Positions 35,947-57,435 of a stretch of DNA of 64,000 nt are shown here, piece after piece. Origin of the DNA: Labrys wisconsinensis (GTDB lineage Bacteria; Pseudomonadota; Alphaproteobacteria; Rhizobiales; Labraceae). Location of the stretch: NCBI RefSeq assembly GCF_030814995.1, contig NZ_JAUSVX010000004.1, positions 310,001 through 374,000 on the forward strand, read 5' to 3'. The translations under genes and the position numbers were made by a program. The notes beneath the pieces are model-generated. The model was not told the DNA's origin. It did not search any database and worked only from the letters and a program-made list of their open reading frames with translations. Numbering within the stretch: position 1 is the first letter of the stretch; each line of letters opens with the position of its first letter.

Positions 35947-35964
35947 TTGTGTGTATACAAACGA
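35947..35964. promoter_or_regulatory. Nic-regulon operator A
   Basis: TTGTGTGTATACAAACGA; the reverse strand, TCGTTTGTATACACACAA, aligns with sites B-E. It is 69 bases upstream of the dehydrogenase small subunit and 145 upstream of the MarR gene. Confidence 0.7.
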
Positions 35965-36032
35965 TCCAGGGGCAATGGAATGACGATGGCGGCCCGGTTC
36001 GGCGCGCGGCGCGGCGGCATGGCTGGGGACCG

Positions 36033-36527
36033 ATGAGGGCGAGCCGTCCGATCGCCCTGCACGTCAACGGCGCCGAGCATGCGGTGACGGCCGAGCCGTC
36101 GACGCCGCTGCTCTATCTCCTGCGCAACGACCTCGCCCTGAACGGCCCGAAATTTGGCTGCGGCCTCGGCGAATGCGGCGCCTGCACCGTGCTGCTCGAC
36201 GGCGTGGCGGCCCGCAGCTGCGTGGTGCCGGCCGCCATGGCCGAGGGCCGCGCCGTGGTGACGCTGGAGGGCCTGGCGCAGGGCGAAACGCTCGACCCGG
36301 TGCAGCAGGCCTTCATCGACGCCCAGGCGGCGCAGTGCGGCTATTGCCTCAACGGCATGATCATGACGGCCAAGGCTCTGCTCGACCGGGTGGCCGAGCC
36401 GGACGAGGCGGCCATTCGCGAGGAGCTGCGCTTCAACCTCTGCCGCTGCGGCACCCATGTCGAGATCCTGCGCGCGGTGCGGCTGGCGGCCGAGCGCCAC
36501 CGGGCGGCCCGGAGCGCGGCACCGTGA
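36033..36527 (+). CDS. nicA: Nicotinate dehydrogenase small subunit, (2Fe-2S)2 protein
   Basis: 164 residues from the ATG at 36033 (MRASRPIALHVNGAEHAV). Both clusters of the xanthine-oxidase family are complete: the plant-type Cys43/48/51/63 (FGCGLGECGACTVLLDG) and Cys102/105/137/139 (QCGYCLNGMI ... CRCG). It passes electrons from the molybdenum site of NicB to its cytochrome c domain. The stop overlaps the NicB GTG start. No FAD subunit is present, as in Pseudomonas NicAB. Related isoquinoline and aldehyde oxidases look alike; the nicotinate assignment rests on the gene context. Confidence 0.88.
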   Translation: MRASRPIALHVNGAEHAVTAEPSTPLLYLLRNDLALNGPKFGCGLGECGACTVLLDGVAARSCVVPAAMAEGRAVVTLEGLAQGETLDPVQQAFIDAQAAQCGYCLNGMIMTAKALLDRVAEPDEAAIREELRFNLCRCGTHVEILRAVRLAAERHRAARSAAP

Positions 36528-39500
36528 GCGCGGCCGAGCCGCTGTCGCGCGCGGCGCTGCTCCAGCGCAGCGGCGTGCTCGCCGTGGTGCGGCCCGGCCG
36601 GGATGGGGAGGACGAGCTGTTCCTCTGCCTGACCGAGGAAGGCGGCATCCTCGGCTTCAACGGCCATGTCGACCTCGGCACTGGCATCCGCACGGCGTTG
36701 GCGCAGATCGTCGCCGAGGAGCTCGACGTCGGCCTCGCCGACGTCACCATGGTGCTCGGCCACACCGCCCTGGCGCCGAACCAGGGTCCGACCATCGCCA
36801 GCGAGACCATCCAGGTCACCGCCGCGCCGCTGCGCCGTGCCGCAGCCCAGGCCCGCCGCCATCTCCTGGCGCTCGCCGCCGAGGTGCTCGACCGGCCGCT
36901 GGAGAGCCTGTCGACGCGCGAAGGCCGGGTGACGGCCGGGGAGGGCGGTCATGCCGCCGCCTATGGCGAGCTCCTCGGCAACCGGCGCATCCGCCTCGAG
37001 CTCGACGAGACGACGCCGGTCAAGCCGCCGGCCGAGTACCGTATCGTCGGCCGGCCGGTCGAGCGCACCGACATCCCGGCCAAGGCGACGGGCCGCGCCG
37101 TCTATGTCCACGACATGCGCCTGCCCGGCATGGTCCATGGCCGGGTGGTGCGCCCGCCCTATGCCGGCATCGACGGCGGCGAGTTCATCGGCCGCAGCCT
37201 GGTCTCGGTCGACGAGACCTCGGTCGCCGACATCCCCGGCATTCTCGCCGTGGTGCGGGAGGGCGACTTCCTCGGCGTGGTCGCCGAGCGCGAGGAGCAC
37301 GCGGTCGAGGCGGCCGCGGCGCTGAAGGCGACATGGCGGCCCTGGGCCGACGGGGAGGGGCTCGCCAATCTGGAGACGGCGCTGCGGGCCCGGCCGGTGC
37401 AATCGCGCCGCCTCGTCGACCAAGGCGATGTCGAGGCGGCGCTCGCCGTCGCGCCGAAGCGGCTCGATCGCACCTATCTCTGGCCCTACCAGCTGCACGG
37501 CTCGATCGGCCCGTCCTGCGCCGTGGCCGACTTCACGCCGGACGGCCTCAGGGTCTGGTCCGGCACGCAGAACCCCCATGCCATGCGTGCCGACCTCGCC
37601 CTGCTCACCGGCCTGCCGGAGGCTGGCATCGAGGTCGTGCGGCTGGAGGCGGCGGGGTGTTATGGCCGCAACTGCGCCGACGACGTCACCGCCGATGCGG
37701 CGCTGCTGTCGCGGGCGGTCGGCCGGCCGGTGCGGGTGCAGCTCACCCGCGAGCAGGAGCACCAGTGGGAGCCGAAGGGCGCCGCGCAGGTGATCGACGT
37801 CGCCGGCGCGCTCGGGCCCGGCGACAGCCTGGCGGCCTATGATTTCCAGACGCGCTATCCCTCCAACGCCGCCCCGACCCTGGCGCTGCTGCTGACCGGG
37901 CGCGTGCCGCCCGAGCCGGCCGTGCTGCAGATGGGCGATCGCACGGCGCTGCCCTCCTACGACTACCGGAACCTGCGCGTCACCGTTCACGACATGGCGC
38001 CGATCGTGCGCGCGTCCTGGCTGCGCGGCGTCTCGGCCATGCCGAACGTCTTCGCCCACGAGAGCTTCATCGACGAGCTCGCCGTCGAGGCCGGCGCCGA
38101 CCCGGTCGCGTTCCGCCTGCGCCATCTCACCGACCCGCGCGCCGCCGAGCTGACGCGGGCGACGGCCGAGCGCGCCGGCTGGACGCCGCGCACCGGCCCG
38201 GCCGGCGCCGAGGCGGAGGACGAGGTGGTGCACGGGCGCGGCTTCGCCCAGGCCCGCTATGTCCACGGCAAATGGCCCGGCGTCGGCGCCGCCTGGTCGG
38301 CCTGGGTGGCCGACGTGGCGGTCAACCGCTCGACCGGCGAGGTCAGCGTCACCCGGGTCGTCGTCGGCCAGGACACGGGCATGATGATCAACCCCGCGGG
38401 GGTGCAGCACCAGATCCACGGCAATGTCGTGCAGTCGACCAGCCGCATCCTCAAGGAGGAGGTCAGCTTCAGCGAGACCCGCGCCGTCGCCAGCCGGGAA
38501 TGGGGCGCCTATCCCATCCTGACCTTTCCCGAGCTGCCGGCCATCGACGTGGTCATGCTGGACCGGCCGGACCAGCCGCCGATGGGGGCGGGCGAATCCG
38601 CCTCGGTGCCGAGCGCGGCGGCGATCGTCAATGCGGTCTACGACGCCACCGGCGTGCGCTTCCGCGAGCTGCCGCTGACGCCCGAGCGGGTGCTGGCCGG
38701 GCTCGGCCGCCTGCCGCCGCGGCCGGCCGCCCCGCCGCCCCGCCGCAAGCGCCGCTTCGCCTGGCTGGCCGGCTTCGGCGCGCTCTTCGCCGGCCTCGGC
38801 GGGCTCGCCGCCACGGCCCTGCCGATCCGGCCCGCCATCGCCCCGATCGAGCGGCCCGATCCCGCTGCCTTCGCGCCGCAGACCATCGAGCGCGGCCGGC
38901 TCATGGCGGCGCTCGGCGCCTGCGCGGTCTGCCATACCGTGGCGGGCGGACGGGCCCTTGCCGGCGGCCTGGCGCTCGAGACCCCGTTCGGCACGGTGAC
39001 GACCACCAACATCACGCCCGATGTCGAGACCGGCATCGGCGCCTGGTCCTATCCCGCTTTCGAGCGGGCGATGCGCGAGGGCGTCCACCGCGACGGACGG
39101 CATCTCTACCCTGCCTTCCCCTATCCGAGCTTCGCCAAGGCCAGCGATGCCGACCTGCAGGCGCTCTACGCCTTCCTGATGGCGCAGCCCGCGGTGAAGC
39201 AGGCCAATGTGGAAAGCCGGCTAACTTTTCCCTTCAACCTTCGGCCGCTGATGGCCGGCTGGAACCTGCTGTTCAACCGCGGTACCAGTCCGGCACCCGA
39301 TCCGACCCGCCCGGACGCCTGGAACCGCGGGCGCACCCTCGTCGACGGGCTCGGCCATTGCGGCGCCTGCCACACGCCGCGCAACGCCCTCGGGGCCGAG
39401 CGCGGCGGGGCGGCCTATCTCGCTGGCGGCGAGGCCGAGGGCTGGGATGCGCCGGCGCTGACCCGGCTGTCCGCGGCGCCGGTGCCCTGGAGCGAAAAGG

Positions 39501-40030
39501 AACTCTACGCCTATCTCCGCACCGGCGCATCGGCCCATCACGGCGCCGCGGCCGGGCCGATGGCGCCCGTCGTGGACGAGCTGAAGGCGCTGCCGGATGC
39601 GGATATCCGCGCCATGGCGGCCTATCTCGCCAGCTTCAACGATGCCCTGCCGCCGGACGAGGCCGAGGCGAAGGCGCAGGCGGCCGCGGCCGGCGTGCCG
39701 GTGCCGGCGGGCTTCAGCGCCGCAGCCCGGCTCTATGACGGGGCCTGCGCCACCTGCCACGAGGCGGGGCGCGGGGCGGTGCTGGCGGGCGCCGGCCAGC
39801 CGCTCGGCCTCCACACCAGCCTCCACGCGGAGCGGCCCGACACCTTCCTGCGGGCCGTGCTGGCAGGGATCGAGCGGCCGGCGGACGGCGCCATGCCGGG
39901 CTTCGCGGCGACGCTGGACGACCGCCAGATCGCCGAGCTTGCGGCCTATGTCCGCGCCCGCTTCGCGCCGGGCCGGCCGCCATGGCAGGATGTGGCCGAG
40001 ACCGCGGCGCGGCTGCGGGCCGCACCGTGA
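36524..40030 (+). CDS. nicB: Nicotinate dehydrogenase large subunit: molybdopterin domain fused to triheme cytochrome c
   Basis: 1168 residues from the GTG at 36524, which overlaps the nicA stop (GTGA). Residues 1 to about 735 are an aldehyde-oxidase-type molybdopterin domain (GFNGHVDLGTGIRTALAQI; GEYR-like PAEYRIVGRPVERTDIP; GAGESASVPSAAAI). A membrane helix follows at about 745-768 (FAWLAGFGALFAGLGGLAA). Three c-type heme motifs are at residues 800 (CAVCH), 946 (CGACH) and 1075 (CATCH). This is the NicB architecture of Pseudomonas: it hydroxylates nicotinate at C6 with water and sends electrons to the respiratory chain. Isonicotinate or another N-heterocycle cannot be excluded. Confidence 0.9.
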   Translation: MSAAEPLSRAALLQRSGVLAVVRPGRDGEDELFLCLTEEGGILGFNGHVDLGTGIRTALAQIVAEELDVGLADVTMVLGHTALAPNQGPTIASETIQVTAAPLRRAAAQARRHLLALAAEVLDRPLESLSTREGRVTAGEGGHAAAYGELLGNRRIRLELDETTPVKPPAEYRIVGRPVERTDIPAKATGRAVYVHDMRLPGMVHGRVVRPPYAGIDGGEFIGRSLVSVDETSVADIPGILAVVREGDFLGVVAEREEHAVEAAAALKATWRPWADGEGLANLETALRARPVQSRRLVDQGDVEAALAVAPKRLDRTYLWPYQLHGSIGPSCAVADFTPDGLRVWSGTQNPHAMRADLALLTGLPEAGIEVVRLEAAGCYGRNCADDVTADAALLSRAVGRPVRVQLTREQEHQWEPKGAAQVIDVAGALGPGDSLAAYDFQTRYPSNAAPTLALLLTGRVPPEPAVLQMGDRTALPSYDYRNLRVTVHDMAPIVRASWLRGVSAMPNVFAHESFIDELAVEAGADPVAFRLRHLTDPRAAELTRATAERAGWTPRTGPAGAEAEDEVVHGRGFAQARYVHGKWPGVGAAWSAWVADVAVNRSTGEVSVTRVVVGQDTGMMINPAGVQHQIHGNVVQSTSRILKEEVSFSETRAVASREWGAYPILTFPELPAIDVVMLDRPDQPPMGAGESASVPSAAAIVNAVYDATGVRFRELPLTPERVLAGLGRLPPRPAAPPPRRKRRFAWLAGFGALFAGLGGLAATALPIRPAIAPIERPDPAAFAPQTIERGRLMAALGACAVCHTVAGGRALAGGLALETPFGTVTTTNITPDVETGIGAWSYPAFERAMREGVHRDGRHLYPAFPYPSFAKASDADLQALYAFLMAQPAVKQANVESRLTFPFNLRPLMAGWNLLFNRGTSPAPDPTRPDAWNRGRTLVDGLGHCGACHTPRNALGAERGGAAYLAGGEAEGWDAPALTRLSAAPVPWSEKELYAYLRTGASAHHGAAAGPMAPVVDELKALPDADIRAMAAYLASFNDALPPDEAEAKAQAAAAGVPVPAGFSAAARLYDGACATCHEAGRGAVLAGAGQPLGLHTSLHAERPDTFLRAVLAGIERPADGAMPGFAATLDDRQIAELAAYVRARFAPGRPPWQDVAETAARLRAAP

Positions 40031-40638
40031 TGGGGGAGGCCGGCATGGCGCTGGAGCCGCTGGGACAGCGGGCTCTGCATGTGGCGATCGACATGCAGCG
40101 GCTGTTCGCCGAGCCGACGGACTGGTACGTGCCGGCCCTTGCCGGCATCGTCGCGAATGTCGAGCGGCTGGCGCGAGAACGGGCGGACCTGACGCTGTTC
40201 GCCCGCTTCCTCGTGCCGCCGAGCGCGGCCGAGGCGCCGGGGCGCTGGCGCCGCCATTACCAGCGCTGGCCGTCGGTGGCCGGCGACCGGCTCGATCCCG
40301 CGCTCATCGACCTGGTCGCGCCGCTGGCGACGCTGGCCCGGCCCGACCGGGTCATCGACAAGCACGGCTATTCGGTTTTCGGCGCGGAGGGCTTCGCCGG
40401 GATGCTGGCGCATCGGGGCGTGGACGCGCTGGTCTTCAGCGGCGTCGAGACCGATGTCTGCGTGCTGGCGAGCGTGCTCGACGCGGTCGACCTCGGCCTG
40501 CGCGTCGTGGTCGTGTCGGACGCGGTGACGAGCGCGGACCTCGATGTCCACGCCATCGTGCTCGGCCGGCTGCTGCCGCGCCTTGATGCCCAGGTCGAGA
40601 TTGCCACGACCGAGGCCGTGCTCGCCGCCTGGGCGTAG
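40030..40638 (+). CDS. Isochorismatase-family cysteine hydrolase
   Basis: 202 residues from the ATG at 40030, which shares one base with the nicB stop. The Asp-Lys-Cys triad is visible: Asp in [12 protein letters not shown], Lys in [11 protein letters not shown] and Cys in [17 protein letters not shown]. Members hydrolyse amides such as nicotinamide, maleamate or N-carbamoyl compounds. Inside this operon it might make nicotinate from an amide or act on a ring-opened intermediate. It is not the standard PncA length pattern, and the substrate is open. Confidence 0.85.
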
Positions 40639-40642: not shown

Positions 40643-41839
40643 CTACTTCACCACGCTCGGGATCTTCTCGGCCGGCGGCGTGTTGCGGCTGCGGCCGAGG
40701 CGGACCTGTCCGTCGATCACCACCATGCCGATGCCGGGCAGGTCGCCGAGCTGGATGCTGTCGAGGAAATCCCGGCCGGCGGAATGCTGCGCCTTGTCCA
40801 TGAACACGAAATCGGCGGCGCGGCCCGGCTCGATCAGGCCGCAGTCGAGGCTGCGCATGCGCGCGGTGTTGCCGGTGGCGAAGCAGAAGGCGATCTCGGC
40901 CGGCACGTCGCCGAGGGAGGAGAGCAGCGAGACCATGCGGGCGATGCCGAGGGGCTGCACGCCGGAGCCGGCCGGCCCGTCGGTGCCGAGGATGACGCGT
41001 TCCAGCTGCCCCATTTCGCGCGCGGTGCGCAGGGTGTAGAGCGCGGCGCGCTCGTTGCCGTTGTGCACCAGCTCCAGGCCGCGGCGGCAGCCCTCGCAGA
41101 TGCAGCGGATCTCCTTGTCCGGCAGGGCCGTGTGGCCGCCATTGACATGGCCGACCACGTCCGTGTCCGCCTCCAGCACCACGTCGGCGCCGATCAGCCC
41201 GGAGCCGGGGATCGAGGGGCCGCCGGTGTGGATGGTCGACTGGATGCCGTATTTGCGGGCCCAGGCCACCATCTGACGGGCCGTCGCGCCGTCCTTGACG
41301 CCGCCGAGCCCGACCTCGCCGAGCAGCCTGACGCCGGCCGCGGCGAGCTCCTTGAAGTCCTCCTCCACCATGCCCGGCTCGATGACAGGCGCGCCGGCAT
41401 GGATCTTGACCCCGCCGGGCCGGAAGGCGGTGAAGGCGCGCTGGGCGAAGATCGCCATGGCCTTGAGGCCGACCACGTCGCGCGGCCGGCCGGGCGTGTG
41501 CACCTCGCCGGCCGAGATCATCGTGGTGACGCCGCCGTTCATGGTCGAGTCGATCCAGCCGAGCTGGTTCTGGCGCGGCGTCCAGTCGCCGGCGACGGGA
41601 TGGACGTGGCTGTCGATCAGCCCGGGCGCCAGCACCGTGCCGTTGGCGTCAACGACGTTGGCGGCCCCTTCCGTGTCGAGATCCCCATAGCGGCCGACCG
41701 CGGCGATGCGCCCGCCGACGGCGACGACGGTGTCGGCGTCCAGGATCGGGTTGGCGATGTCGCCGCTCAGCATCAGGCCGACATTGCGAATCACCAGCTT
41801 GTGGTCGGGATGGGTTTGGGCGGCGACGGGCTCGGCCAT
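40643..41839 (-). CDS. ena: Enamidase (6-oxo-tetrahydronicotinate hydrolase)-like amidohydrolase
   Basis: 398 residues from the ATG at 41839 ([23 protein letters not shown]). The amidohydrolase HxH is at His78/His80 ([14 protein letters not shown]). Further metal-ligand candidates are EVGLGG-type [37 protein letters not shown] and the late aspartate in [14 protein letters not shown]. It resembles the Fe/Zn enamidase of Eubacterium barkeri, which opens 1,4,5,6-tetrahydro-6-oxonicotinate to 2-formylglutarate and ammonia. It converges on the cysteine hydrolase and is divergent from the ferredoxin across operator B. Confidence 0.82.
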
Positions 41840-41921: not shown

Positions 41922-41939
41922 TTGTTAGCACACAAACGA
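41922..41939. promoter_or_regulatory. Nic-regulon operator B
   Basis: TTGTTAGCACACAAACGA (reverse TCGTTTGTGTGCTAACAA). It lies between the divergent enamidase (83 bases away) and ferredoxin (38 bases away) and shares 14 of 18 bases with site A in the same orientation. Confidence 0.7.
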
Positions 41940-41977: not shown

Positions 41978-42307
41978 ATGACCTTCGCCGTCACCGACGC
42001 CCGCATCCGCTGCAAGTATATGGACTGCGTCTCGGTCTGTCCGGTCGACTGTTTCTACGAGGGCGAGACCATGCTGGTCATCCACCCCGTGGAATGCATC
42101 CATTGCGGCGTGTGCGAGCCGGAATGCCCGGCCGACGCGATCGTGCCCGACACGGCGGCGGGCGCCGCGCCCTGGCTCGAGCTCAATGCGCGGCTCGCGG
42201 CGGTCTGGCCGAACATCACGCGCAAGGGCACGCCGCCCGCCGATGCCGACGCCTGGAAGGGCGTGCCGGGCAAGCTGGCCTATCTCTCGCAAGGCCCCGG
42301 CGGCTGA
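41978..42307 (+). CDS. 7Fe-type ferredoxin (FdxA-like)
   Basis: 109 residues. The N-terminal cluster residues are [15 protein letters not shown] and the C-terminal ones [12 protein letters not shown], the layout of FdxA ferredoxins with one [3Fe-4S] and one [4Fe-4S] cluster. It is followed after 61 bases by a ferredoxin-NADP reductase. As 6-hydroxynicotinate reductase (EC 1.3.7.1) takes electrons from ferredoxin, this protein is the likely donor for the product of 48174-49661. Operator B precedes it. Confidence 0.92.
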
Positions 42308-42368: not shown

Positions 42369-43142
42369 ATGAGCAATTTCCACGAAGAGCGCGTCCTCAG
42401 CGTCCACCACTGGACCGACACCCTGTTCAGCTTCAGGACGACGCGCGACGCGACGTTCCGCTTCCGCAACGGCGAGTTCACCATGATCGGGCTCCGGGTG
42501 GACGACCGGCCGCTGCTGCGCGCCTACAGCGTCGTCAGCACCAATTACGACGAGACCCTCGAATTCTTCTCGATCAAGGTGCCGGACGGGCCGCTGACCT
42601 CGCGCCTGCAGCACCTCAAGGTCGGCGACCCCATCATCGTCGGCAAGAAGGCGACGGGCACGCTGGTGCTCGACAATCTCCGGCAGGGGAGGCACCTCTA
42701 CCTCCTCGGCACCGGCACCGGCCTTGCCCCGTTCCTGTCGCTCATCCGCGACCCCGAGACCTACGAGCGCTTCGAGAAGGTGGTCCTGGTGCACGGCTGC
42801 CGCCAGGTGGCCGAGCTCGCCTATGGCGAGATGATCACCAGGACGCTGCCGGAGGACGAGTTCCTCGGCGAGTTCGTGCGCGAGCAGCTCATCTACTATC
42901 CCACGGTGACGCGCGAGGATTTCCGCAACCGCGGCCGCATCACCGACCTCATGCGCTCGGGCAGGTTCTACGAGGATATCGGGCTGCCGCCGCTCGACCG
43001 GGAGCACGACCGCTTCATGCTCTGCGGCAGCCCGCAGATGCTCGTCGACCTCAAGGCCATGTTCCTGGAGCACGGCCTGCAGGAGGGCAATCACGGCGAG
43101 CCGGGCGACTTCGTCATCGAGCGGGCCTTCGTGGAGAAGTGA
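42369..43142 (+). CDS. fpr: Ferredoxin--NADP reductase
   Basis: 257 residues from the ATG at 42369 (MSNFHEERVLSVHHWTD). The FAD motif is LLRAYSVVS, the pyrophosphate stretch SIKVPDGPLTS, the NADP motif GTGTGLAPFLS, and the C-terminus MLCGSPQML ... FVIERAFVEK is that of bacterial subclass I FPR. It would reduce the upstream ferredoxin with NADPH and thereby feed the reductive step of the pathway. The gene ends 29 bases inside the convergent regulator gene. Confidence 0.93.
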   Translation: MSNFHEERVLSVHHWTDTLFSFRTTRDATFRFRNGEFTMIGLRVDDRPLLRAYSVVSTNYDETLEFFSIKVPDGPLTSRLQHLKVGDPIIVGKKATGTLVLDNLRQGRHLYLLGTGTGLAPFLSLIRDPETYERFEKVVLVHGCRQVAELAYGEMITRTLPEDEFLGEFVREQLIYYPTVTREDFRNRGRITDLMRSGRFYEDIGLPPLDREHDRFMLCGSPQMLVDLKAMFLEHGLQEGNHGEPGDFVIERAFVEK

Positions 43143-48173: not shown

Positions 48174-49661
48174 CTACCCGTGCGAGCGGCGCGCGCCCTG
48201 CGGCGCGAACGGCCAGGGATTGTCGTGCCGGTGCGGCAGGCTGAGGCGGCCGCCGGGATCGAGGGTCGTGAGCGGGCGGACATAGTCCATATGGCCGCCG
48301 AGGGCCGCGTAGTCGGAGAGCTTCAGGGTGAACTCGATCGGCGCCACCAGGGCCGGGGTCGGCACATAGCCGAAGGCGTTCTCCGGCAGGCGCGTCACGT
48401 CGACCATGAAGGTGATGCCGCCACCCGGCCAGACATAGACCGGCGCGCCGCCGCAGGTGACATAGGTCAAGGCGTCCTTGACCGAGCGGGTCAGGCGCAC
48501 CGGATTCTCGGTGACGCCGGCGCGCAGCGAGCCGCCGGCGCCGCCGATGAACAGCACGGTCGAGAGCGCCGGCTCGCAATTCTCGGCGATGCGATCCACC
48601 GGCTCGACCAGGGCCTGCGGCATCTCGGCCTGGACCGGCCGCAGCGCCTCGTCGAGCTCGTAATAGGCGGCGTGCTCGCCCGTGGTGGAGACCATCAGCA
48701 GGCGCAGGCCGGGACGGGCGACCTTCGGGTCGAACGGGCCGAGGATGGCGAGGGGATCGTCGATGTCGGTGCCGCCCCAGCCGGTGCCGGGCTGCGCCAC
48801 CTGGAAATAGCGCCCGGGCGTCGAGCGCCGTCCCTTCAGCCTGATGCCGGTATCGGGGATGCCGAGCAGCTTGCCGGCCTGGTGCTCGGACAGCACGCCG
48901 GTGATGTGGTCGTCGACCACCACCACCTCGTCGACCTTGCCGTGCCACTGCTTGGCGAAGATGCCGATGGTGGCCGAGCCGCAGCCGACGCGCATGCGCG
49001 TCTCGGTCTGGCCGTTGACGATGGGCGCCCGGCCGGCCTGGACCACCAGCGTCGCGCCGCCGTCGATGCTCATCTCGACCGCCTTGCCGTTGCACAGCTC
49101 CAGGAGCGCGTCGCAGGTGACGCGGCCCTCCTTCTTCGAGCCGCCGGTGAGGTGGTGCACACCGCCGAGCGAGAGCATCTGCGAGCCGTATTCGCCGGTT
49201 GTGACATGGCCGACCGCCTCGCCCTCGACCCGCACCATATGCGTCTCCGGGCCGATGAAGCGGTCGGTGTCGATCTTCACCTTGACGCCGCAATAGCTGA
49301 AGATGCCTTCGGTCACCACCGTGACCATGTCGACGCCGTCGACCTCGGAGGAGACGATGAAGGGCGCCGGCTTGTAGTCGGGATAGGTGGTGCCGGCGCC
49401 GATGGCGGTGACGAAGGTCTCGGCCTGCGGCACGATGCTGCCGTCCCACTCGTCGGAGCGGACGAAGGGCACGACCTCGCCGCCATGCGACAGGGTGCGG
49501 TCGAGCAGCACGTGCGGGTCGACGCGCACCAGCTCGCCGTCGGCATTGGCATAGCGGTCGCAGGCGCCGGTCATGCCGGGCTTGATGAAGCACATCACCG
49601 GGCAGGCGTCGCAGCGGATCTTGTCGTCCTTCACCGGAACGGCATCGGCATCAGCGGGCAT
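48174..49661 (-). CDS. hnr: 6-hydroxynicotinate reductase-like iron-sulfur protein
   Basis: 495 residues. The N-terminus has a cysteine motif KIRCDACPVMCFIKPGMTG plus AC (Cys17, 20, 24, 34), and further cysteines at 124, 183, 190 and 227 (VGCGSATIGIF). The sequence type is that annotated as 6-hydroxynicotinate reductase, first described in Eubacterium barkeri, where it holds Fe-S clusters and a covalent flavin and reduces 6-hydroxynicotinate to the 1,4,5,6-tetrahydro-6-oxo form with ferredoxin. It lies in a regulon with NicAB, enamidase, ferredoxin and reductase, which supports the function. It leads the operon to 46115, behind operator C. Confidence 0.8.
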   Translation of the reverse strand: MPADADAVPVKDDKIRCDACPVMCFIKPGMTGACDRYANADGELVRVDPHVLLDRTLSHGGEVVPFVRSDEWDGSIVPQAETFVTAIGAGTTYPDYKPAPFIVSSEVDGVDMVTVVTEGIFSYCGVKVKIDTDRFIGPETHMVRVEGEAVGHVTTGEYGSQMLSLGGVHHLTGGSKKEGRVTCDALLELCNGKAVEMSIDGGATLVVQAGRAPIVNGQTETRMRVGCGSATIGIFAKQWHGKVDEVVVVDDHITGVLSEHQAGKLLGIPDTGIRLKGRRSTPGRYFQVAQPGTGWGGTDIDDPLAILGPFDPKVARPGLRLLMVSTTGEHAAYYELDEALRPVQAEMPQALVEPVDRIAENCEPALSTVLFIGGAGGSLRAGVTENPVRLTRSVKDALTYVTCGGAPVYVWPGGGITFMVDVTRLPENAFGYVPTPALVAPIEFTLKLSDYAALGGHMDYVRPLTTLDPGGRLSLPHRHDNPWPFAPQGARRSHG

Positions 49662-49727: not shown

Positions 49728-49746
49728 TCATTTGTATACTAACGAT
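49728..49746. promoter_or_regulatory. Nic-regulon operator C
   Basis: TCATTTGTATACTAACGAT, 67 bases upstream of the 6-hydroxynicotinate-reductase-like gene on the minus strand. It matches the five-site consensus TCGTTTGTRYACTAACAAT at 17 of 19 positions. Confidence 0.7.
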
Positions 49747-49810: not shown

Positions 49811-50701
49811 TCAGCGGACGGCATAATGGCTCGGATCCTGCGCCGAGCGCAGCTTCGGCGCCAGATAATCCGCCTGCGCCGGGAAGCGCGCCACGGCGTT
49901 GAGGGCGATGCGGCCGGCGATCGGGGCGAGCTCGAGGCGCCGGTCGTTGCCGATGATGCCGACCTGCGGCGGCGCGAAATAATTGGCATAGACCGCGGTG
50001 ATGAAGGTCATGCTGGTGAAGCTCGCGCCGATCTCGCGCGCCAGCGTCGCCTCCGGCGCCAGGCTGTGGTTGATCAGGTCGGCGCCGAGCGAGCGGTAGG
50101 CATTGGCCTCGGCCGGGCTCTGCAGGCGAGGCCCCCAGCAATGGGCGCAGACGAGCCCCGCCGAAAGGCCGTAGACCCGCTGCTCGGCCGGCCAGAGCTC
50201 GCGCGCCGTCGCCTCGACCACGCCGGACAGGATCGGGCACATCAGCTGCTTGCCGCTGGCATCGTAGCGCAGCCGGCCCGGCAGCAGCGAGAACTGCGTC
50301 TGGGTGAGCTCGATCACGTCTCCTGATATGACGAAATCGCTCTCCAGGATGGCGCGGTTGAGCGCGCCGCTGGTCGACATCGCCAGGATCTTGCCGACGC
50401 CCGCTTCGCGCAGCACCCAGTAGAGCCGGCGCTGCGAGCTGTGATCCATCTCGTCCAGCCGGTTGCCGTGGGAGAAGACGACGAGGACGCGCCGCGGCCT
50501 GCCGTCCTCGGTGATCGTGCCGTCGAGCTCGACCAGCTTCCACTCGTCCGACACGCCGAACGGCGTCGCGAACGCCATGTCGCGCTGGATCAGCTTGACG
50601 CCCGGCTCGGCCACGTCCTCTGGGAAGCGCAGGCCCCAGGTGGCGCTGCCGCAGATGATGGCGTGGTCGACCTTCGGGATGGGCAGGGTCTGGTCCGGCA
50701 T
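49811..50701 (-). CDS. S-methyl-5'-thioadenosine/purine nucleoside phosphorylase-like protein
   Basis: 296 residues of the PNP/MTAP family: HAIICGSATWGLRFP at the N-terminus (nucleoside phosphorylase I strand), FSHGNRLDEMDHSSQRRLYW as the phosphate-loop region, AMSTSGALNRAIL, and AHCWGPRLQSPAEANAYRSLGAD-type segment (landmarks GPRLQSPAEANAYR and GADLINHSLAPEATLAREIG). It is the last gene of the ABC importer operon, 7 bases after the ATPase. It may release a base from an imported nucleoside, perhaps nicotinate from its riboside; this is inference from the operator upstream of the transporter. Confidence 0.82.
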   Translation of the reverse strand: MPDQTLPIPKVDHAIICGSATWGLRFPEDVAEPGVKLIQRDMAFATPFGVSDEWKLVELDGTITEDGRPRRVLVVFSHGNRLDEMDHSSQRRLYWVLREAGVGKILAMSTSGALNRAILESDFVISGDVIELTQTQFSLLPGRLRYDASGKQLMCPILSGVVEATARELWPAEQRVYGLSAGLVCAHCWGPRLQSPAEANAYRSLGADLINHSLAPEATLAREIGASFTSMTFITAVYANYFAPPQVGIIGNDRRLELAPIAGRIALNAVARFPAQADYLAPKLRSAQDPSHYAVR

Positions 50702-50708
50702 GGCAGCG

Positions 50709-51779
50709 TCAGCCTTCGAGCACGATGGTATGGGCGGGGTCCCAGGTCAGCGTCACCGCGCTGCCCGGCCCCAGGCCTTCGGTCATGCGGTTCTGCACGA
50801 AGACCGTGAGCAGGCGGGCGGCCGCCTCGACCTTGTAGGTGACGGAGTTGCCGGCGAAGATCTCGGTGGCGACGGTGCCTTCGAGACGGTTGAGGCCGTC
50901 CTGGGCGGCGGCCCGGCCTGGCGTCAGCGTGAACTTCTCCGGACGGACGGCGAGCGTGACCTTGGACCCCGGGGGCGCCGCGTCGCGGGTGTCGACGGCG
51001 AGGCCGCCGCCGATCGGGATGCGGGTGAGGCCGTCGGCGCGGCCGGCGACCTGACCATCGAAGAAGTTGGCAGTGCCGAGAAAGCCCGCGGCGAAGGCGG
51101 TCTTCGGCCGCTCGTAGATCTCGCGCGGCGCGCCGATCTGCTCGACCCGGCCCTCGCTCATGATGGCGATGCGGTCGGACAGGGTCAGCGCCTCCTCCTG
51201 GTCGTGGGTGACGAACACCGTGGTGATGCCGACATTGCGCTGGATCTGCTTCAATTCGATCTGCATCTCCTCGCGCAGCTTTTTGTCGAGCGCGCCGAGC
51301 GGCTCGTCGAGCAGCAGCACGCGCGGGTTGGTCGCAAGAGCCCGCGCCAGCGCGATGCGCTGCTGCTGGCCGCCGGACATCTGGCGCGGCTTGCGCGGGC
51401 CGTAGCTCTCCAGCCGCACCAGCTTGAGCAGATCGGCGACGCGCTCGGCGATGCGAGCCTTTGGCTCGTGGCGCACGGAGAGGCCGAATCCGACATTGTC
51501 GGCGACGCTCATGTGCGGGAACAGCGCGTAGTTCTGGAACATCATGCCGATGTCGCGCTTGTGCACCGGGATGTTCTGCACCGGCCGGCCGCCGATCGAG
51601 ATCTCGCCTTCGTCGGGGTCGATGAACCCGGCGATCGAGCGCAGCAGCGTCGTCTTGCCGCCGCCGGAGGGGCCGAGCAGCCCGAAGAACTCGCCGTCGG
51701 CGATGGTCATCGACACGTCCGCCAGGGCGGTGACCTTGCCGTAGCGCTTGGCGACCTTGCTGATGCCGACCACGCTCAT
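50709..51779 (-). CDS. ABC transporter ATPase, PotA-like
   Basis: 356 residues. Walker A is GPSGGGKTTLL, the signature MSGGQQQRIALARAL, Walker [13 protein letters not shown] and the switch histidine in VTHDQEEAL. A TOBE domain forms the C-terminus (LAVRPEKFTLTPG). It follows the permease by a single base and precedes the phosphorylase by 7, so the four genes 53506-49811 are one operon behind operator D. It would drive import through 51781-53506. Confidence 0.93.
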   Translation of the reverse strand: MSVVGISKVAKRYGKVTALADVSMTIADGEFFGLLGPSGGGKTTLLRSIAGFIDPDEGEISIGGRPVQNIPVHKRDIGMMFQNYALFPHMSVADNVGFGLSVRHEPKARIAERVADLLKLVRLESYGPRKPRQMSGGQQQRIALARALATNPRVLLLDEPLGALDKKLREEMQIELKQIQRNVGITTVFVTHDQEEALTLSDRIAIMSEGRVEQIGAPREIYERPKTAFAAGFLGTANFFDGQVAGRADGLTRIPIGGGLAVDTRDAAPPGSKVTLAVRPEKFTLTPGRAAAQDGLNRLEGTVATEIFAGNSVTYKVEAAARLLTVFVQNRMTEGLGPGSAVTLTWDPAHTIVLEG

Positions 51780-51780
51780 G

Positions 51781-52563
51781 TCAGCGCTCTCCGCCGAATT
51801 TGCTGAAGCGGGCGAAGGCGAGCATCATCGCCATCGACGCCAGGATGATGATGGTGGAGATCGCGTTGATCTCCGGGGTGAAGCCCTTGCGGATCGCCGA
51901 ATAGATCTCGACCGGCAGGGTGGAGACGCCGACCGGCGCCAGGAAATAGGAGACGACGAACTGGTCGAAGGAGATGGCGAAGGCGAACAGCGCCGCCGCC
52001 ACGATGCCGGGCGCCAGAAGCGGCACCGTCACCCGCCAGAAGGTCTGCCAGCCATTGGCGCCGAGGGTCGCCGCCGCCTCCTCCATGGCGATGCTGAAGC
52101 TCTTCAGCCGGCTGCCGACGATGATCACGACATAGGGCAGCGACAGCGCGACATGGCCGAGCAGGATGGCGTGCAGGCCGCGGCCGATGCCGGTCCAGAA
52201 GAAGAAGATCAGCATGGCCGTGCCGGTGATCAGCCAGGGGATGGTGAGCGGGGGCAGCAGCAGCACCTGCAGCAGGCGCTTGCCGAAGAAATCGTAGCGG
52301 GCGAAGGCGAGCGCGGTGAGCGTGCCGAGCCCGGTGGCGATCACCGTGTTGGCGATGGCGATCAGCACGCTGTTGCGCGCCGCGGCCAGCAGCGTCGCGT
52401 TTTCGCTGAGCGCCCGGAACCAGACGAGGTCGAAGTGGAACGGCAGCTCGTAGAGCTGGGAGGTGTTGAAGGCCATGACCATCATCACCAGGATGGGCAT
52501 GTAGAGGAAGATGAGGATCAGGCCGAGATAGGAGCCGGCGAAGAGGCCGCCGAGGGATCTCAT
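51781..52563 (-). CDS. ABC transporter permease, PotC-like
   Basis: 260 residues with six predicted membrane helices (first: SYLGLILIFLYMPILVMMVMAF). The EAA loop is EEAAATLGANGWQTFWRVTV. It lies between the PotB-like permease (10-base gap) and the ATPase (1-base gap). It is part of the importer under nic operator D. Confidence 0.92.
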   Translation of the reverse strand: MRSLGGLFAGSYLGLILIFLYMPILVMMVMAFNTSQLYELPFHFDLVWFRALSENATLLAAARNSVLIAIANTVIATGLGTLTALAFARYDFFGKRLLQVLLLPPLTIPWLITGTAMLIFFFWTGIGRGLHAILLGHVALSLPYVVIIVGSRLKSFSIAMEEAAATLGANGWQTFWRVTVPLLAPGIVAAALFAFAISFDQFVVSYFLAPVGVSTLPVEIYSAIRKGFTPEINAISTIIILASMAMMLAFARFSKFGGER

Positions 52564-52573
52564 GGTCGCCTCC

Positions 52574-53506
52574 TCAGCTCAGGGTCATGTGCTTCTTCAA
52601 GACCGGCGCGCACAGGCCCATGAGGATGAGCACGATCGCCAGCATGATGAAGCCGAGGGCCGCGCCGAGCGGCCAGTTGAACGAAGCGGTGAACTGGTTC
52701 TCGATCAGCGTGCCGAGCATGATCGCCTGCTGGCCGCCGAGGATGCGCGGCTCCATGAAGGAACCGATCACCGGCACGAAGATCAGCACCACCCCGGCGA
52801 CCACCCCGGGCAGGCTCAGCGGCAGGGTGATGCGGCGGAACACCGTGAAGGAGGAAGCGCCGAGGCTGCGCGCCGCCTCGGCCAGGCTGTCGTCGATCGC
52901 CTGCAGCGAGACATAGCAGGTGAGGATCATGTAGGGCAGGTAGGCGTGCACCAGGCCGACGACGATGGCGGCGTAGCTGTACATCAGGTCGAGCGAGGGC
53001 GCGCCCGGCCAGATCGCCCTGAGGCCCTGCGCGACGAGGCCGTTGTTGGTGAGCACCATGGTCCAGGAGAAGGTGCGCACCAGCCCGTTGCTCCAGAACG
53101 GCAGCACGATCAGCAGCAGCAGCGCCTCGCGCCAGCGGTTCCTGACGAACTTGGCGAGCAGCAGCGCCGCGGGATAGCCGAGCACGAAGCAGGTGAGCGT
53201 CACGGTGAAGCCGAGCGTCAGCGAGCGCCAGGCATTGATCCAGTAGAGCGGCTTGGTGAAGAAGTCGGTGTAATGCTTGAGCGTGAACTGGGCCACGCGG
53301 CCGCCGATCGGCGCGACCGTCAGAACGCTGAAATAGAGCATCGCCGCCAGCGGCAGCAGCACGGTGACGAGGAGCACGATATAGGCGCCGCCGGTCAGGC
53401 CGACGATCGCCTGCGCGCGGCGGGCGCCGCCGGTCATCGACGCGAGCCGGCCGGAGGGCGCGGCGCGCGCCACCGCGCCGGCGCTGTCGGCTGCGATGTT
53501 CGACAT
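52574..53506 (-). CDS. ABC transporter permease, PotB-like
   Basis: 310 residues with six hydrophobic helices after a 30-residue soluble start. The EAA loop is LAEAARSLGASSFTVFRRITLP. It is the first gene of the permease-ATPase-phosphorylase operon and starts 20 bases downstream of operator D on the minus strand. Its matching binding protein is at 56300-57361, on the other side of a glycosidase gene. Confidence 0.92.
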   Translation of the reverse strand: MSNIAADSAGAVARAAPSGRLASMTGGARRAQAIVGLTGGAYIVLLVTVLLPLAAMLYFSVLTVAPIGGRVAQFTLKHYTDFFTKPLYWINAWRSLTLGFTVTLTCFVLGYPAALLLAKFVRNRWREALLLLIVLPFWSNGLVRTFSWTMVLTNNGLVAQGLRAIWPGAPSLDLMYSYAAIVVGLVHAYLPYMILTCYVSLQAIDDSLAEAARSLGASSFTVFRRITLPLSLPGVVAGVVLIFVPVIGSFMEPRILGGQQAIMLGTLIENQFTASFNWPLGAALGFIMLAIVLILMGLCAPVLKKHMTLS

Positions 53507-53525
53507 CCTGTTCCCATCTGCATAT

Positions 53526-53544
53526 TCGTTTGTACACTAACATA
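53526..53544. promoter_or_regulatory. Nic-regulon operator D
   Basis: TCGTTTGTACACTAACATA, 20 bases upstream of the PotB-like permease start on the minus strand, a position typical of a repressor. It matches the consensus at 17 of 19 positions. Confidence 0.7.
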
Positions 53545-53640
53545 TATGATCGCGGATCGCTGGCAAGCCCCGTCCTCGAAAGGCTCCAGCCTGGGCATGG
53601 TAGCAGGAAAGCCGGCCGTGCCGACTCGCCATGCCTGCCG

Positions 53641-55881
53641 TCAGGCCGGCAGGCCGTGCACCGAGAGCGGCGCGCCGGGGCGGGCGCCGGAGACGTCGAC
53701 GGCGATGCCGGAGCCTTCGGCCCGCCACGGCGCGTCCCGCCCGTCGAGACGCACGGCGACGACCCGCTCCGGCGGGAGCTGCGGCAGGCGGATCTCGGCC
53801 GCGCCCGGCGCCGCGGCCAGGATGCGGCAGGCGAAGAGCCCGCTCTCGACGACGAGATGCGTGAGGCGCCCGGTGAGCGTGCTGGCAAGGATCGGCACGC
53901 CGCCCTTGGCGAGGGTCAGATGGCCCGCCGCCACGGTCACCGTCACGTCGCCGATCGGCGAGGCGAGGGGGCCGAGCGCCACGTCCTCGCCGGTGTTGAC
54001 GATCTCCCAGCCGCCCCAGGGATTGACGTCCATCACCTCGGCCACGCCGAGCATCGGCAGCATGGCGCCCCAGGTGAGGAAGGGGTCGGTGTCGGGCTGG
54101 TCGTCGATCTCGCCGGTCTCGGCGCTGTAGTTCTCGCCGCACAGGCGCCGGCTGGTCCAGGACTGCATGAACAGGTCGAGGCTCTTCTGCGCAAAGGCGC
54201 TGGCTTCGTCGAGGAAGCCGTAGCGGCGCAGGCCCTGCCAGACGAACCAGTTGACGTTCGGCCAGATGCGGCCGCGCCAATAGACGTTGTCGGCATAGGC
54301 CGGGTCGTCGCGCGTCGCATTGGGAATGACGTAGCGCCCGCCGAACGTGGCGGGATCGTCGAGATGGGCGAGGAGGCGGGCGGCCTGCTCCGGCGAGGCG
54401 GCGCCGCAGATCAGGGGGTAGAAGCTGGTCGGGCCGAGGCTGCGCACGAAGCCCTCGCCGGGCGGCGCATGACGCCGACGGTTGGCGAAGATGCCGCGCG
54501 CTTCGTCCCAGAGCTCGGTGCGGATCTTGTCCCGGCTGGCGGCGGCGAGGCTCGCGAACTCCGCCGCCTCCTCCGGCCGGCCGAGCTCGGCGGCGATCAG
54601 CGCCAGCATCTCCGCGTCGAGCGCCAGGGTGCAGTTGAGGCCGACGTCGAGGAGCGACAGCGTGCGGGTGGCGGGATCGTACACCGCCTCGTCATGGGTG
54701 GCGGAATTGTCCATGCCGGTCTCGTTGCGCGCGCCGAAGGCGGTGCCCTTGTAGAGGGCTTCGCCGACGTCGGAGGTGCCGCAGGAGACGAGGCCCCGCC
54801 CGTCGGGGTCGCGATGCCTGCGCCACCAGCGCTGGTTGCGGGCGAGCAGGCCGTAGCCGGCCTCCAGCAGGGTGCGGTCGCGCCGGCGCAGGTAGAGCAG
54901 CCACAGCATGAAGGCGCCGTTCGGCGCCTGGGTGCGGTCGACCCAGGCATCGTTCGAGGTGACGATGCAGGCGAAATTGCCCTGCGGCGTGGCGCTGGCC
55001 ATGGCCACGGCGAGGTTCTCGGCGGCGAGGCCGCCGTCGAGGAGGCCGGTCATCCCTGCCGCATAGGTCTGGTCGTTCCACCACACGGCGAACGTGCCGA
55101 GGTTCCAGATCCGGCTGACCGCGGTGTAGGGCCGGTTGTTGACCCCGTCCCACAGCGTGTTCCAGCCCATGACGTCGCGGACCACGTCGAGCGCGCCGGC
55201 ATGGCGACCGTGCTGGGACGGCAGGGCCGGCTCGGCGGGGGCGGCGTCGAGGGCGGCACGAGCCCGTTCGATCGCCAGCGCCCGGTCGTCGGCCACCGCG
55301 GCGGCGAAGCGGTTGTCGCGCATCATCTCCAGGTTGAAGCGCAGCGCGATGGTCGGCGCCGCGGTGCCGCGGCTGGCGATCTGGAAATAGCCGTTCGCCT
55401 CGAAGTCGGCGGCGAGCGCCTCGACGCTGTCATGCGCCGTGACCTCGACGGCCGGCGCCGCGCTGACCAGGGCGACGAAGCGATGGCCGACCTTCACCAC
55501 CGCGGCCTGGGCATCGGTGAGATATTCGACCGTCTCGCCGCGCTCGGCCGAGAGGCACAGCGTCACCCAGAAGCGCAGGCCCCATTCCTTCAGCGCCACG
55601 CCGGTCCACGCGCCGACCACGGCATAGGGATCGGGCTTGGCGTAGCGCAAGGCAAGGCGGGTGCCGGCATGGACGGCCTCGATCTCGACCAGGCTGCCGT
55701 CCACCGCGTGCCGGCCGAAGACGGTGCCGTCGCGCGGGGTGATGGTCGTCGCCTTGCGAATGCTGGTCGCATAGAGCACCGGCGTCAGCCGCACCCCGAG
55801 CGGCAGGAACACCATCTCCGCCGGCCGATCCGACCAGCTGTTCCAGGCACGGGCGGCGGGAATGGTGGCGTCGACGAGCAT
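53641..55881 (-). CDS. MGH1-like (GH63-type) glycoside hydrolase
   Basis: 746 residues from the ATG at 55881 (MLVDATIPAARAWNSWSDRPAEM). It has an (alpha/alpha)6-toroid catalytic domain from about residue 220: MGWNTLWDGVNNRPYTAVSR, CIVTSNDAWVDRTQAPNGAF, NETGMDNSATHDEAVYD and YWRGRIWPNVNWFVWQGLRRYG are landmarks of mannosyl-oligosaccharide-glucosidase-like enzymes. There is no signal peptide, so it is cytosolic. It interrupts the importer operon, has no nic operator of its own and is preceded by a repeat doublet, so it may be a later insertion. Its sugar substrate is unknown. Confidence 0.85.
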   Translation of the reverse strand: MLVDATIPAARAWNSWSDRPAEMVFLPLGVRLTPVLYATSIRKATTITPRDGTVFGRHAVDGSLVEIEAVHAGTRLALRYAKPDPYAVVGAWTGVALKEWGLRFWVTLCLSAERGETVEYLTDAQAAVVKVGHRFVALVSAAPAVEVTAHDSVEALAADFEANGYFQIASRGTAAPTIALRFNLEMMRDNRFAAAVADDRALAIERARAALDAAPAEPALPSQHGRHAGALDVVRDVMGWNTLWDGVNNRPYTAVSRIWNLGTFAVWWNDQTYAAGMTGLLDGGLAAENLAVAMASATPQGNFACIVTSNDAWVDRTQAPNGAFMLWLLYLRRRDRTLLEAGYGLLARNQRWWRRHRDPDGRGLVSCGTSDVGEALYKGTAFGARNETGMDNSATHDEAVYDPATRTLSLLDVGLNCTLALDAEMLALIAAELGRPEEAAEFASLAAASRDKIRTELWDEARGIFANRRRHAPPGEGFVRSLGPTSFYPLICGAASPEQAARLLAHLDDPATFGGRYVIPNATRDDPAYADNVYWRGRIWPNVNWFVWQGLRRYGFLDEASAFAQKSLDLFMQSWTSRRLCGENYSAETGEIDDQPDTDPFLTWGAMLPMLGVAEVMDVNPWGGWEIVNTGEDVALGPLASPIGDVTVTVAAGHLTLAKGGVPILASTLTGRLTHLVVESGLFACRILAAAPGAAEIRLPQLPPERVVAVRLDGRDAPWRAEGSGIAVDVSGARPGAPLSVHGLPA

Positions 55882-56299
55882 GGGAGGTCCGTGGGGCAGG
55901 GCGTGGTGGTGAAGATGCGATGGCGGGGCGGAGGAGGGAAGGGGCGGCACGGACGCTCAGGTCAGGCGTGTCCGCGGTTGGGGAGGTTCGTCATGAGCCG
56001 GCTTTTATTCCACCACCGCAGGAACGCGACTGCCGACTGCGTTCGCGTGGATGGCCGGGTCAAGCCCGGCCATGACGGCTGAGAGGTCGCGGGACGAACC
56101 CGATCGCGTTGCAGCGGTCGCGGGATGGCACATGGCCAATTCCTCACCCGCGACCGTCATGGTCGGGCTTGACCCGGCCATCCACGCGAACACTGCGGGC
56201 GGCAGAAGGGGCGCCGGTTCTTGCCGAGCTGAACGCCCCGTTTGCCGATCGAACCCGATCCCTCCCGATCTGCAGGGGAGACCGAGCCCGACACGCCCC
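55882..56299. other. 418-base gap without a gene; holds REP doublet 3
   Basis: Apart from the inverted repeat pair at 56041-56191 I see no gene or RNA. Short frames here are just the repeats read as protein. A TPP-riboswitch-like string at 56078-56130 was considered and rejected. Confidence 0.7.
56041..56191. repeat. REP doublet 3 (inverted pair, diverged subtype)
   Basis: Units at 56041-56077 and 56155-56191 are inverted copies separated by 77 bases. They are the same 37-base element as at 45.3-46.1 kb, with the stem changed to ATGGCCGGG / CCCGGCCAT type (GACGGG to GCCGGG or GTCGGG) but the flanks CCACGCGAAC kept. Confidence 0.85.
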
Positions 56300-57361
56300 T
56301 TACTGCGCGAAGTCGGTCTTCACCTCGGCCCAGAGCTCCTGGATCTCCTGGCGCTTGTCGTCGGGCATCGGCTGCATGAACTTCAGCCGGCCGGCGACCT
56401 CGGGCGCGCCCATGACGACCCGGTTGAAGGCGTCCGCCGGAAGGGCGGCCACGGCCTTGGTGTTGGCCGAGACCGCGGCGCCCGTCTGGGTGTCCCAGCG
56501 GACGTAGAAGTCCGGGCTGATCATGTAGTCGATGAACTTGGCAGCCCCGTCCGGGTTCGGCGCGTTGGCGGCGATGGTCAGGGTGTCGAACCAGCCGACG
56601 GCGCCCTCCTGCGGGAGGACGAACTTGCTCGGCAGCTTGAACTTCTTCACCGCGCGGGCGGCGCCGCCGGCCCAGATCACGCCGATGTCGAAGCTCTTGG
56701 CGGCGAAACCCTTCATCCACTCGTCCTCGGAAGCCCAGAAGGAGCGGATCTGCGGCTTCAGCTCGAGCAGCTTCTTCTTGATCGCCGGCATGTCGGAGGG
56801 GTTGTTGATGTCCTGGCCGAGCGCGATCGCCGCGAGCTCGACGGCCAGGAGCGCATCATCACGGAAGGCGATGCGGCCGGCATATTTGGGGTCCCACAGC
56901 GCGTTGATCGAGGTGATGTCGTCCTTGATCGTGTCAGTGTTGTAGGAGAAGGAGGTGGAGCCCCACACCCAGGGCACGCCCCAGAGCTTGCCCTCGACCG
57001 TGACGCTCGGGTCCTTGGTCAGGGTCGGGTTGACGTCGGGCAGGTTGGTGATCTTGGCCGGGTCGATCGTCTGCACCAGGCCTTCCCCGCGCGCCTGGTT
57101 GAGATAGGTGGAGTTGACCAGCACCACGTCGTAGGCACCGGGGCTGGTGCGCAGCTTGGTCAGCATCTCCTGCTCGGAGGTGAAGTAGTCGTGCACCACC
57201 TTGATGCCCGTCTTCTTCTCGAATTCCTCCACGGCGAACTTCTCGTCCGTGCCGTAGCCGTTCCAGTTCAGCACCTTGATCTCGGCGGCGAACGCCGCGC
57301 CGGTCGAGGCGGCGAGCCCGGCGCCAAGCGCCGCGGCGAGCAAAGTCCGGTGTCCCTTCAT
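56300..57361 (-). CDS. Periplasmic substrate-binding protein, PotD-like, of the nic-regulated importer
   Basis: 353 residues from the ATG at 57361 (MKGHRTLLAAALGAGLAAST). The signal peptide is cleaved after AAFA. The mature protein starts AEIKVLNWNGYGTDEKFAV, a typical PotD/PotF-type beginning, with YDVVLVNSTYLNQAR and GVPWVWGSTSFSYNTD. It has its own copy of the nic operator (site E) 56 bases upstream. It is separated from its presumed permeases by the GH63-like gene. The ligand may be nicotinate-related rather than a polyamine; it is not proven. Confidence 0.88.
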   Translation of the reverse strand: MKGHRTLLAAALGAGLAASTGAAFAAEIKVLNWNGYGTDEKFAVEEFEKKTGIKVVHDYFTSEQEMLTKLRTSPGAYDVVLVNSTYLNQARGEGLVQTIDPAKITNLPDVNPTLTKDPSVTVEGKLWGVPWVWGSTSFSYNTDTIKDDITSINALWDPKYAGRIAFRDDALLAVELAAIALGQDINNPSDMPAIKKKLLELKPQIRSFWASEDEWMKGFAAKSFDIGVIWAGGAARAVKKFKLPSKFVLPQEGAVGWFDTLTIAANAPNPDGAAKFIDYMISPDFYVRWDTQTGAAVSANTKAVAALPADAFNRVVMGAPEVAGRLKFMQPMPDDKRQEIQELWAEVKTDFAQ

Positions 57362-57416
57362 CGCAAGTCCCCTCTCGTGCATGCCTGTTTCAGGCGGTCT
57401 CGGCCCTGCGGCCTTA

Positions 57417-57435
57417 GTGTTTGTACACTAACAAT
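57417..57435. promoter_or_regulatory. Nic-regulon operator E
   Basis: GTGTTTGTACACTAACAAT, 56 bases upstream of the binding-protein start on the minus strand. It matches the consensus at 17 of 19 positions and also forms TTAGTG-N6-CACTAA with the bases before it. Confidence 0.7.

Follow-up and report, generated by a model that had tools for sequence, protein, structure and literature searches.

A palindromic candidate operator in front of nicotinate-catabolism and transporter operons of Labrys wisconsinensis

MarR-type repressors of the genes for use of nicotinate (vitamin B3) are a known kind of regulator, represented by BpsR of Bordetella and NicR of Pseudomonas putida. BpsR is a MarR repressor of nicotinate genes that is released by 6-hydroxynicotinate, and its description calls the DNA sequence that it recognises unclear (PMC6837509). 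The MarR-type NicR represses nicotinate operons and controls the nicC and nicX operons (PMC10269826), and does not share the BpsR ligand contacts (PMC6837509). A nicotinate cluster with a putative nicotinate transporter has been described in Azorhizobium caulinodans and Bradyrhizobiaceae SG-6C (PMC3511419), and the words 'marr' and 'operon' are absent from the main text of that paper. Here we describe an 18-bp palindrome, TYRTTNGTATACNAAYRA, that occurs five times in a 64,000-nucleotide stretch of the Labrys wisconsinensis genome (contig NZ_JAUSVX010000004.1, positions 310,001 to 374,000; the window from here on) and once more on another contig. These sites are very probably the operators of one local BpsR-like MarR repressor (35350-35802), which would be released by 6-hydroxynicotinate or a near metabolite.

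The window protein resembles BpsR in belonging to the MarR family, in keeping three of its four ligand contacts and in being tied to nicotinate catabolism. In contrast to BpsR, it goes with the reductive pathway of 6-hydroxynicotinate reductase (Hnr) and enamidase rather than with nicC and nicE, it has Phe in place of His23, and an operator is proposed for it here, from sequence alone. P. putida differs in having two regulators, NicR and NicS, and the nicC/nicX pathway; neither nicC nor nicX lies downstream of any of the six sites, where nicAB, ena, fdx, hnr and the transporters were found, this being the only part of the genome searched for them. To what is described of the A. caulinodans and SG-6C cluster, the present account adds a regulator, an operator, members at unlinked places and a second type of transporter. 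Neither this operator nor the regulon turned up in the open-licence literature, which leaves subscription journals mostly uncovered, and the available parts of PMC7057948 and PMC5343134 describe neither. The novelty lies in the proposed operator, in a regulon for the reductive pathway that is scattered over the genome, and in the transporter arms recruited to it.

The palindrome and the genes behind it

The first-pass annotation had proposed a directional 19-bp pattern with five sites, two of them in reverse, occurring nowhere else in the window. A mismatch search reproduced these sites. At up to three mismatches TCGTTTGTRYACTAACAAT has exactly five matches in the window and no exact copy, at 35946-35964 and 41921-41939 on the minus strand and at 49728-49746, 53526-53544 and 57417-57435 on the plus strand (3, 1, 2, 2 and 2 mismatches in this order), against a mean of 0.01 over 100 shuffles; the whole genome (8,926,997 bases, 55 contigs) holds the same five and no others, and none for the reversed pattern. 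The 19-mer as a directional unit did not stand, since relatives show the symmetric 18-bp palindrome, which starts at 35947, 41922, 49728, 53526 and 57417 in the window. Even the asymmetric matrix made from the five window sites picks up strong symmetric sites in the listed loci of relatives. In the matrix made from the relatives' own sites, symmetric by construction, T4, T5, G7 and their mirror bases are near-invariant; with it, the scores of the five window sites range from 20.4 to 32.7 and the next-best place in the window stands at −1.3, in keeping with the claim that the pattern occurs nowhere else in the window.

Site 1 (35947..35964, TTGTGTGTATACAAACGA, one mismatch to the palindrome) lies 68 bp before the start of nicA and 144 bp before that of the divergent marR, and site 2 (41922..41939, TTGTTAGCACACAAACGA, one mismatch) lies 38 bp before fdxA and 82 bp before the divergent enamidase gene. 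Site 3 (49728..49745, TCATTTGTATACTAACGA) matches the palindrome without mismatch, has the matrix score of 32.7 and stands 66 bp before hnr, the first gene of the Hnr operon. Site 4 (53526..53543, one mismatch) is found 19 bp before the first permease gene of an ATP-binding cassette (ABC) permease-ATPase-phosphorylase-like operon, and site 5 (57417..57434, one mismatch) 34 bp before the gene for an ABC solute-binding protein. A correction to the first-pass annotation is that sites 1 and 2 each lie between divergent genes (marR/nicA and enamidase/ferredoxin).

At up to one mismatch the palindrome occurs at six places in the genome, namely the five window sites and an exact copy on contig C16 (G000:C16:179629-179646), so that its absence elsewhere is limited to the window. 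At up to two mismatches TYRTTNGTRYACNAAYRA finds 11 places, against 4 for the reversed control. Downstream of the sixth site is a Liv-type ABC operon, which was compared with five of the Hnr loci introduced below. Inquilinus has a transporter inside its Hnr operon that shares 66-74% identity with the binding protein, permease and ATPases of this operon; for Chelatococcus, Afipia and two Bradyrhizobium the corresponding identities are 63-73%, and a long overlapping frame of locus L082 stands at 56%. Since the operon has a counterpart in the Hnr operon of relatives, the palindrome has retrieved a functionally expected gene set from another contig.

Conservation was followed in 80 Hnr loci from named genomes. 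As these are the best 80 of 311 Hnr relatives, Bradyrhizobium, Bosea and Afipia are over-represented among them. The palindrome is present at up to one mismatch in all 80 loci and exactly in 77, and in 76 hnr has a site with at most three mismatches in the 400 bp ahead of it; in L015, L020, L023 and L025 hnr is internal to an operon and the site is found about 3.7 kb upstream. Every eighth locus (10 of the 80) was also scored against controls, giving 34 sites at up to three mismatches compared to 0-6 for 19 column-shuffled palindromes. Of 289 genomes drawn from across the class, 44 have Hnr; 18 of them contain the exact palindrome, as do 8 of the 245 others, and the reversed control occurs in 3 of all 289.

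Four congeners carry 6, 6, 6 and 5 sites at up to one mismatch (reversed control 0, 0, 1 and 1). All 23 stand before regulon gene sets, spread over the genome: hnr-UPF0280-AA_synth, enamidase, a nicotinate-dehydrogenase-type operon, ferredoxin reductase-MarR and the Liv operon. In three of the four, sites also precede genes for an ADP-ribosylglycohydrolase, a PfkB/ribokinase-like kinase and a Pot-type binding protein and permease. Within the genus we find no equally good site before an unrelated gene, the six own and 23 congener sites all fronting pathway or associated transporter genes. G302, a genome of another family in the same order, has five sites at up to one mismatch, before nicAB, ferredoxin reductase, hnr, a Pot-type binding protein with an MGH1-like hydrolase, and a permease-ATPase operon. 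The latter two include equivalents of sites 5 (L211) and 4 (L212). The G302 binding protein and hydrolase are 77% and 66% identical to their window counterparts and stand in the same order, and the permease-ATPase operon is 73-82% identical to that of the window; the arrangement of the transporter under the operator is therefore not unique to the window.

Two further features of G302 were seen. In the hnr operon (L211 7217-11052) the single AA_synth gene detected is followed by genes for hydantoinase/oxoprolinase A and B, and the nicAB and isochorismatase genes have a GH3 glycosidase gene in their neighbourhood (L210 9007-11379).

The MarR protein as the likely binder

The MarR-family regulator next to site 1 (35350..35802, minus strand; PF01047), which the first-pass annotation had put forward as the binder, has 2nnn as its nearest solved structure (E 8.6e-41), followed by the BpsR structures 6pcp (E 2.5e-20) and 6pco. 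Co-occurrence, proximity and covariation of its recognition helix with the operator all point to this protein. A relative is present in 77 of the 80 Hnr loci, the three misses being short loci, and reaches at least 50% identity in 68 of the 69 loci of at least 21 kb. The 43 other Hnr genomes of the class-wide draw were searched for orthologs at E≤1e-15, with 34 positive, and a site was called in their fetched Hnr loci when its score was >13 and exceeded those of ten shuffles of that locus. The palindrome is found at the Hnr locus in 32 of the 34 genomes with the MarR protein compared to 1 of the 9 without (p 2.7e-6), and families f94 and f82 hold both states. Where MarR gene and best site share one fetched locus, they are within 190 bp of each other in 15 of 21 cases; in 9 of the 80 loci the palindrome stands just before marR. 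BpsR Arg79 is modelled towards the bases (PMC6837509). The helix residue aligned with it is K or Q in most orthologs and L in one genome, and one or both operator halves have A at position 5 in 13 of 16 Q-type but 0 of 14 K-type genomes (p 4.8e-6), a covariation that direct base contact would give.

Several points weigh against this assignment. The score threshold of 13 was chosen after the scores had been seen, both p-values treat related genomes as independent, and the K/Q split also follows lineages. MarR gene and best site are 3.4-8.4 kb apart in 6 of the 21 single-locus genomes. G028 and G184 have the MarR protein without a site in the fetched locus (that of G184 is cut at a contig start), G122 (L142) has two good palindromes at its Hnr locus and no MarR ortholog at E≤1e-15, and G064, one of the genomes counted as lacking MarR, has a completeness of 68% and a 4-kb locus. 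Beyond the genus the palindrome alone is not specific: 25 genomes of the order hold 16 sites at up to one mismatch, compared to 29 for the reversed control, and 5 of the 16 belong to G302, whose surroundings were examined.

The ligand pocket bears on what would release the protein. BpsR contacts 6-hydroxynicotinate through Tyr15, His23, Arg26 and His32, with Tyr15, Arg26 and His32 reaching the hydroxyl, carboxylate and ring nitrogen (PMC6837509). The window MarR has Tyr, Phe, Arg and His at these positions, keeping three of four, and 77 of 78 aligned rows from the 80-locus set show the same combination, the remaining row being gapped. Among 51 class-wide rows, some of which represent the same gene twice, Tyr and Arg are kept in all, position 23 is Phe in 23, His in 18 and Tyr in 10, and position 32 is His in 26 and Ala in 25. 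Given the replacement of His23 and the frequent Ala at position 32, the ligand may differ from 6-hydroxynicotinate itself. It is conceivable, though we think it rather unlikely, that operator and regulon are as proposed and the inducer is instead nicotinate, tetrahydro-6-oxonicotinate or a later intermediate; pockets do vary within such regulators, as in NicR of P. putida. Against this, Tyr15, Arg26 and His32 are retained in the window protein, and all four BpsR contacts occur together in 8 rows (5 genomes) of the 51 in the class-wide set. A 6-hydroxynicotinate-like ligand is likely, judged from the pocket residues.

That another regulator binds the palindrome seems improbable. Candidates would be the PucR-type protein encoded inside the cluster (43114-44028, with no operator in front), a MarR paralog that belongs to a second enamidase/AA_synth cluster (contig C6), or some unlinked factor. 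However, relatives of the window PucR are found in none of the 80 Hnr loci, compared to 77 for MarR, and in three of four reference loci the MarR reading frame has relatives in 76 loci, with no comparable rival regulator-like frame by eye. We rejected the paralog as binder because its recognition helix, RLTRMDPSTISLVVRAL, is unlike the helices that co-occur with the palindrome, and co-occurrence and covariation single out the window MarR. It is more improbable still that the pattern is a mere AT-rich core promoter element. The five sites are AT-rich islands, among the 0.5% most AT-rich 21-bp stretches in a window of 71% GC, and consensus promoter-like hexamers overlap sites 2 (on both strands) and 4 in the scanned range 41000-58000. 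Yet the two-fold symmetry is conserved in relatives, the reversed-pattern control gives 0, the pattern is absent from the other promoters of the 8.93-Mb genome, and its occurrence depends on the presence of one MarR protein.

We infer that the window MarR binds the sites and that it represses rather than activates. In the direction of the operon, each of the five window sites is preceded at 23-28 nt, a range chosen afterwards, by a hexamer that begins with TTG (TTGACA at two), and the sixth, counted by eye, at 27 nt. The operator would then overlie the −10 region and the start site, as would suit a repressor. A MarR dimer would bind the palindrome, whose upstream edge would lie at about the −10 region, and would block nicAB with the isochorismatase-like hydrolase, the enamidase and ferredoxin-reductase genes on either side of site 2, hnr-UPF0280-AA_synth, the Pot-type ABC transporter in its two units and the unlinked Liv-type transporter on C16; site 1 may also regulate marR. 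Nicotinate would enter and be oxidised, and 6-hydroxynicotinate or a close metabolite would fill the BpsR-like pocket and release MarR.

The second cluster on C6 (L168, G000:C6:130500-141500) holds paralogs of enamidase, AA_synth and isochorismatase with PnrA-like and sugar-type ABC genes, and perhaps serves a related N-heterocycle. Its MarR paralog is 44% identical to the window protein and has a different recognition helix. A palindrome with two mismatches, TTGTTGATGCTCGAACAA, lies 16 bp before its AA_synth gene, at a level where genome-wide matches occur at control rate. A separate operator for the paralog, TTGYTCGANNTCRWRCAA, derived from two places, was not supported (17 forward and 11 reverse matches compared to 13 and 12 in the reversed control).

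Pathway genes of the window

Nicotinate dehydrogenase, Hnr and enamidase are encoded together in the window, as in the hnr/ena pathway of E. barkeri and A. caulinodans, Hnr being assigned by analogy. The nicA-like 2Fe-2S subunit (36033..36527, plus strand) owes its start and name to inspection by eye; its stretch gave no Pfam family over a queried range that is probably out of frame. It is followed on the same strand by a nicB-like molybdopterin subunit with C-terminal cytochrome c domains (36482..40030; MoCoBD_1/2, Cytochrom_C) and, overlapping the nicB end, an isochorismatase-family hydrolase (39982..40638; PF00857) with weak likeness to several cysteine hydrolases including nicotinamidases. 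The enamidase (Ena; 40643..41839, minus strand) matches the solved enamidase 2vun at E 1.7e-110. On the other side of site 2 lie ferredoxin FdxA (41978..42307, plus strand; NF045490, 150.1 bits against a cut-off of 135) and a ferredoxin-NADP reductase-like protein (42369..43142, plus strand) below its NCBIfam cut-off.

The Hnr operon runs on the minus strand. Hnr (48174..49661), without a Pfam or NCBIfam family, is named after the first-pass annotation and by analogy to the cluster in PMC3511419. Directly after it come an ApbE-like UPF0280 protein (47276..48169) and two AA_synth (DUF1185) proteins (46699..47283, matching 3byq, and 46115..46702). The UPF0280 gene is present in all 80 Hnr loci; a role in flavin attachment to Hnr would fit, as we take Hnr to carry a covalent flavin.

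Between the ferredoxin-reductase and AA_synth genes, an NtaA/DmoA-family flavin mononucleotide (FMN) monooxygenase and the PucR-type regulator (43114-45307) have no operator in front and look like a separate unit; relatives of the monooxygenase are found in 1 of the 80 Hnr loci, and of the regulator in 0. At about 45300-46100 and again at 56000-56200, translated open reading frames repeat peptides such as GRACPVHPRE and VDGRDKPVHD, which point to a family of interspersed repeats in intergenic DNA. Outside Labrys, the palindrome at 20588 of locus L018 (Bosea sp. UNC402CLCol) stands before a reading frame starting at 20635 that is NadC/ModD-like by eye and may link the regulon to NAD synthesis.

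Transporter arms

The genes behind sites 4 and 5, all on the minus strand, fit an importer of the Pot/spermidine type, with a PotD-like binding protein (56300..57382), two permeases (52574..53506 and 51781..52563) and a TOBE-domain ATPase (50709..51779). The binding protein scores far below the polyamine equivalog cut-offs (154.7 bits, compared to 582 for PotD). Its gene is followed by that of an MGH1-like glycoside hydrolase (53641..55884), and the permease operon ends in a nucleoside-phosphorylase-family protein (49811..50701; PNP_UDP_1, below all listed NCBIfam cut-offs), for which a reading as aspartate/maleate-isomerase-like was rejected in favour of this family. No match to the phosphorylase-like protein was found at E≤1e-40 in the 288 other genomes of the class-wide draw, and its conservation as a regulon member was not supported, as among six close genomes it occurs only here at E≤1e-10. 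The 80 Hnr loci contain no relative of the Pot-type binding protein, the permeases, the phosphorylase-like protein, the glycoside hydrolase or the isochorismatase, so that the regulon link of the Pot-type arm, the hydrolases and the phosphorylase-like protein rests on the genus and G302.

The same transporter type stands, under one operator, beside different enzymes for glycosidic bonds: the phosphorylase-like protein in the window, the ADP-ribosylglycohydrolase and ribokinase-like kinase in three of the four congeners, and the glycoside hydrolase in the window and G302. No ADP-ribosylglycohydrolase was found at E≤1e-15 in the L. wisconsinensis genome or G302, and the fourth congener has a 49% identical relative with no listed site. 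Such an association suggests the import of nicotinate N-glycosides. We tentatively propose that the operator may have recruited a scavenging arm, in which the Pot-type transporter would import nicotinate ribosides or glucosides, these non-homologous enzymes would cut the bond in different lineages, and freed nicotinate would feed the pathway; this is a possible reading of the gene content, and not the one we would bet on.

For the BpsR-like family, whose DNA target had been called unclear, the palindrome is a concrete candidate operator. It is also a sequence tag for operons that are functionally linked and physically unlinked, and has already found a transporter on another contig. The AA_synth, UPF0280 and phosphorylase-like proteins, the glycoside hydrolase and the ADP-ribosylglycohydrolase are likely to be under the control of nicotinate use, and their functions thereby become testable.

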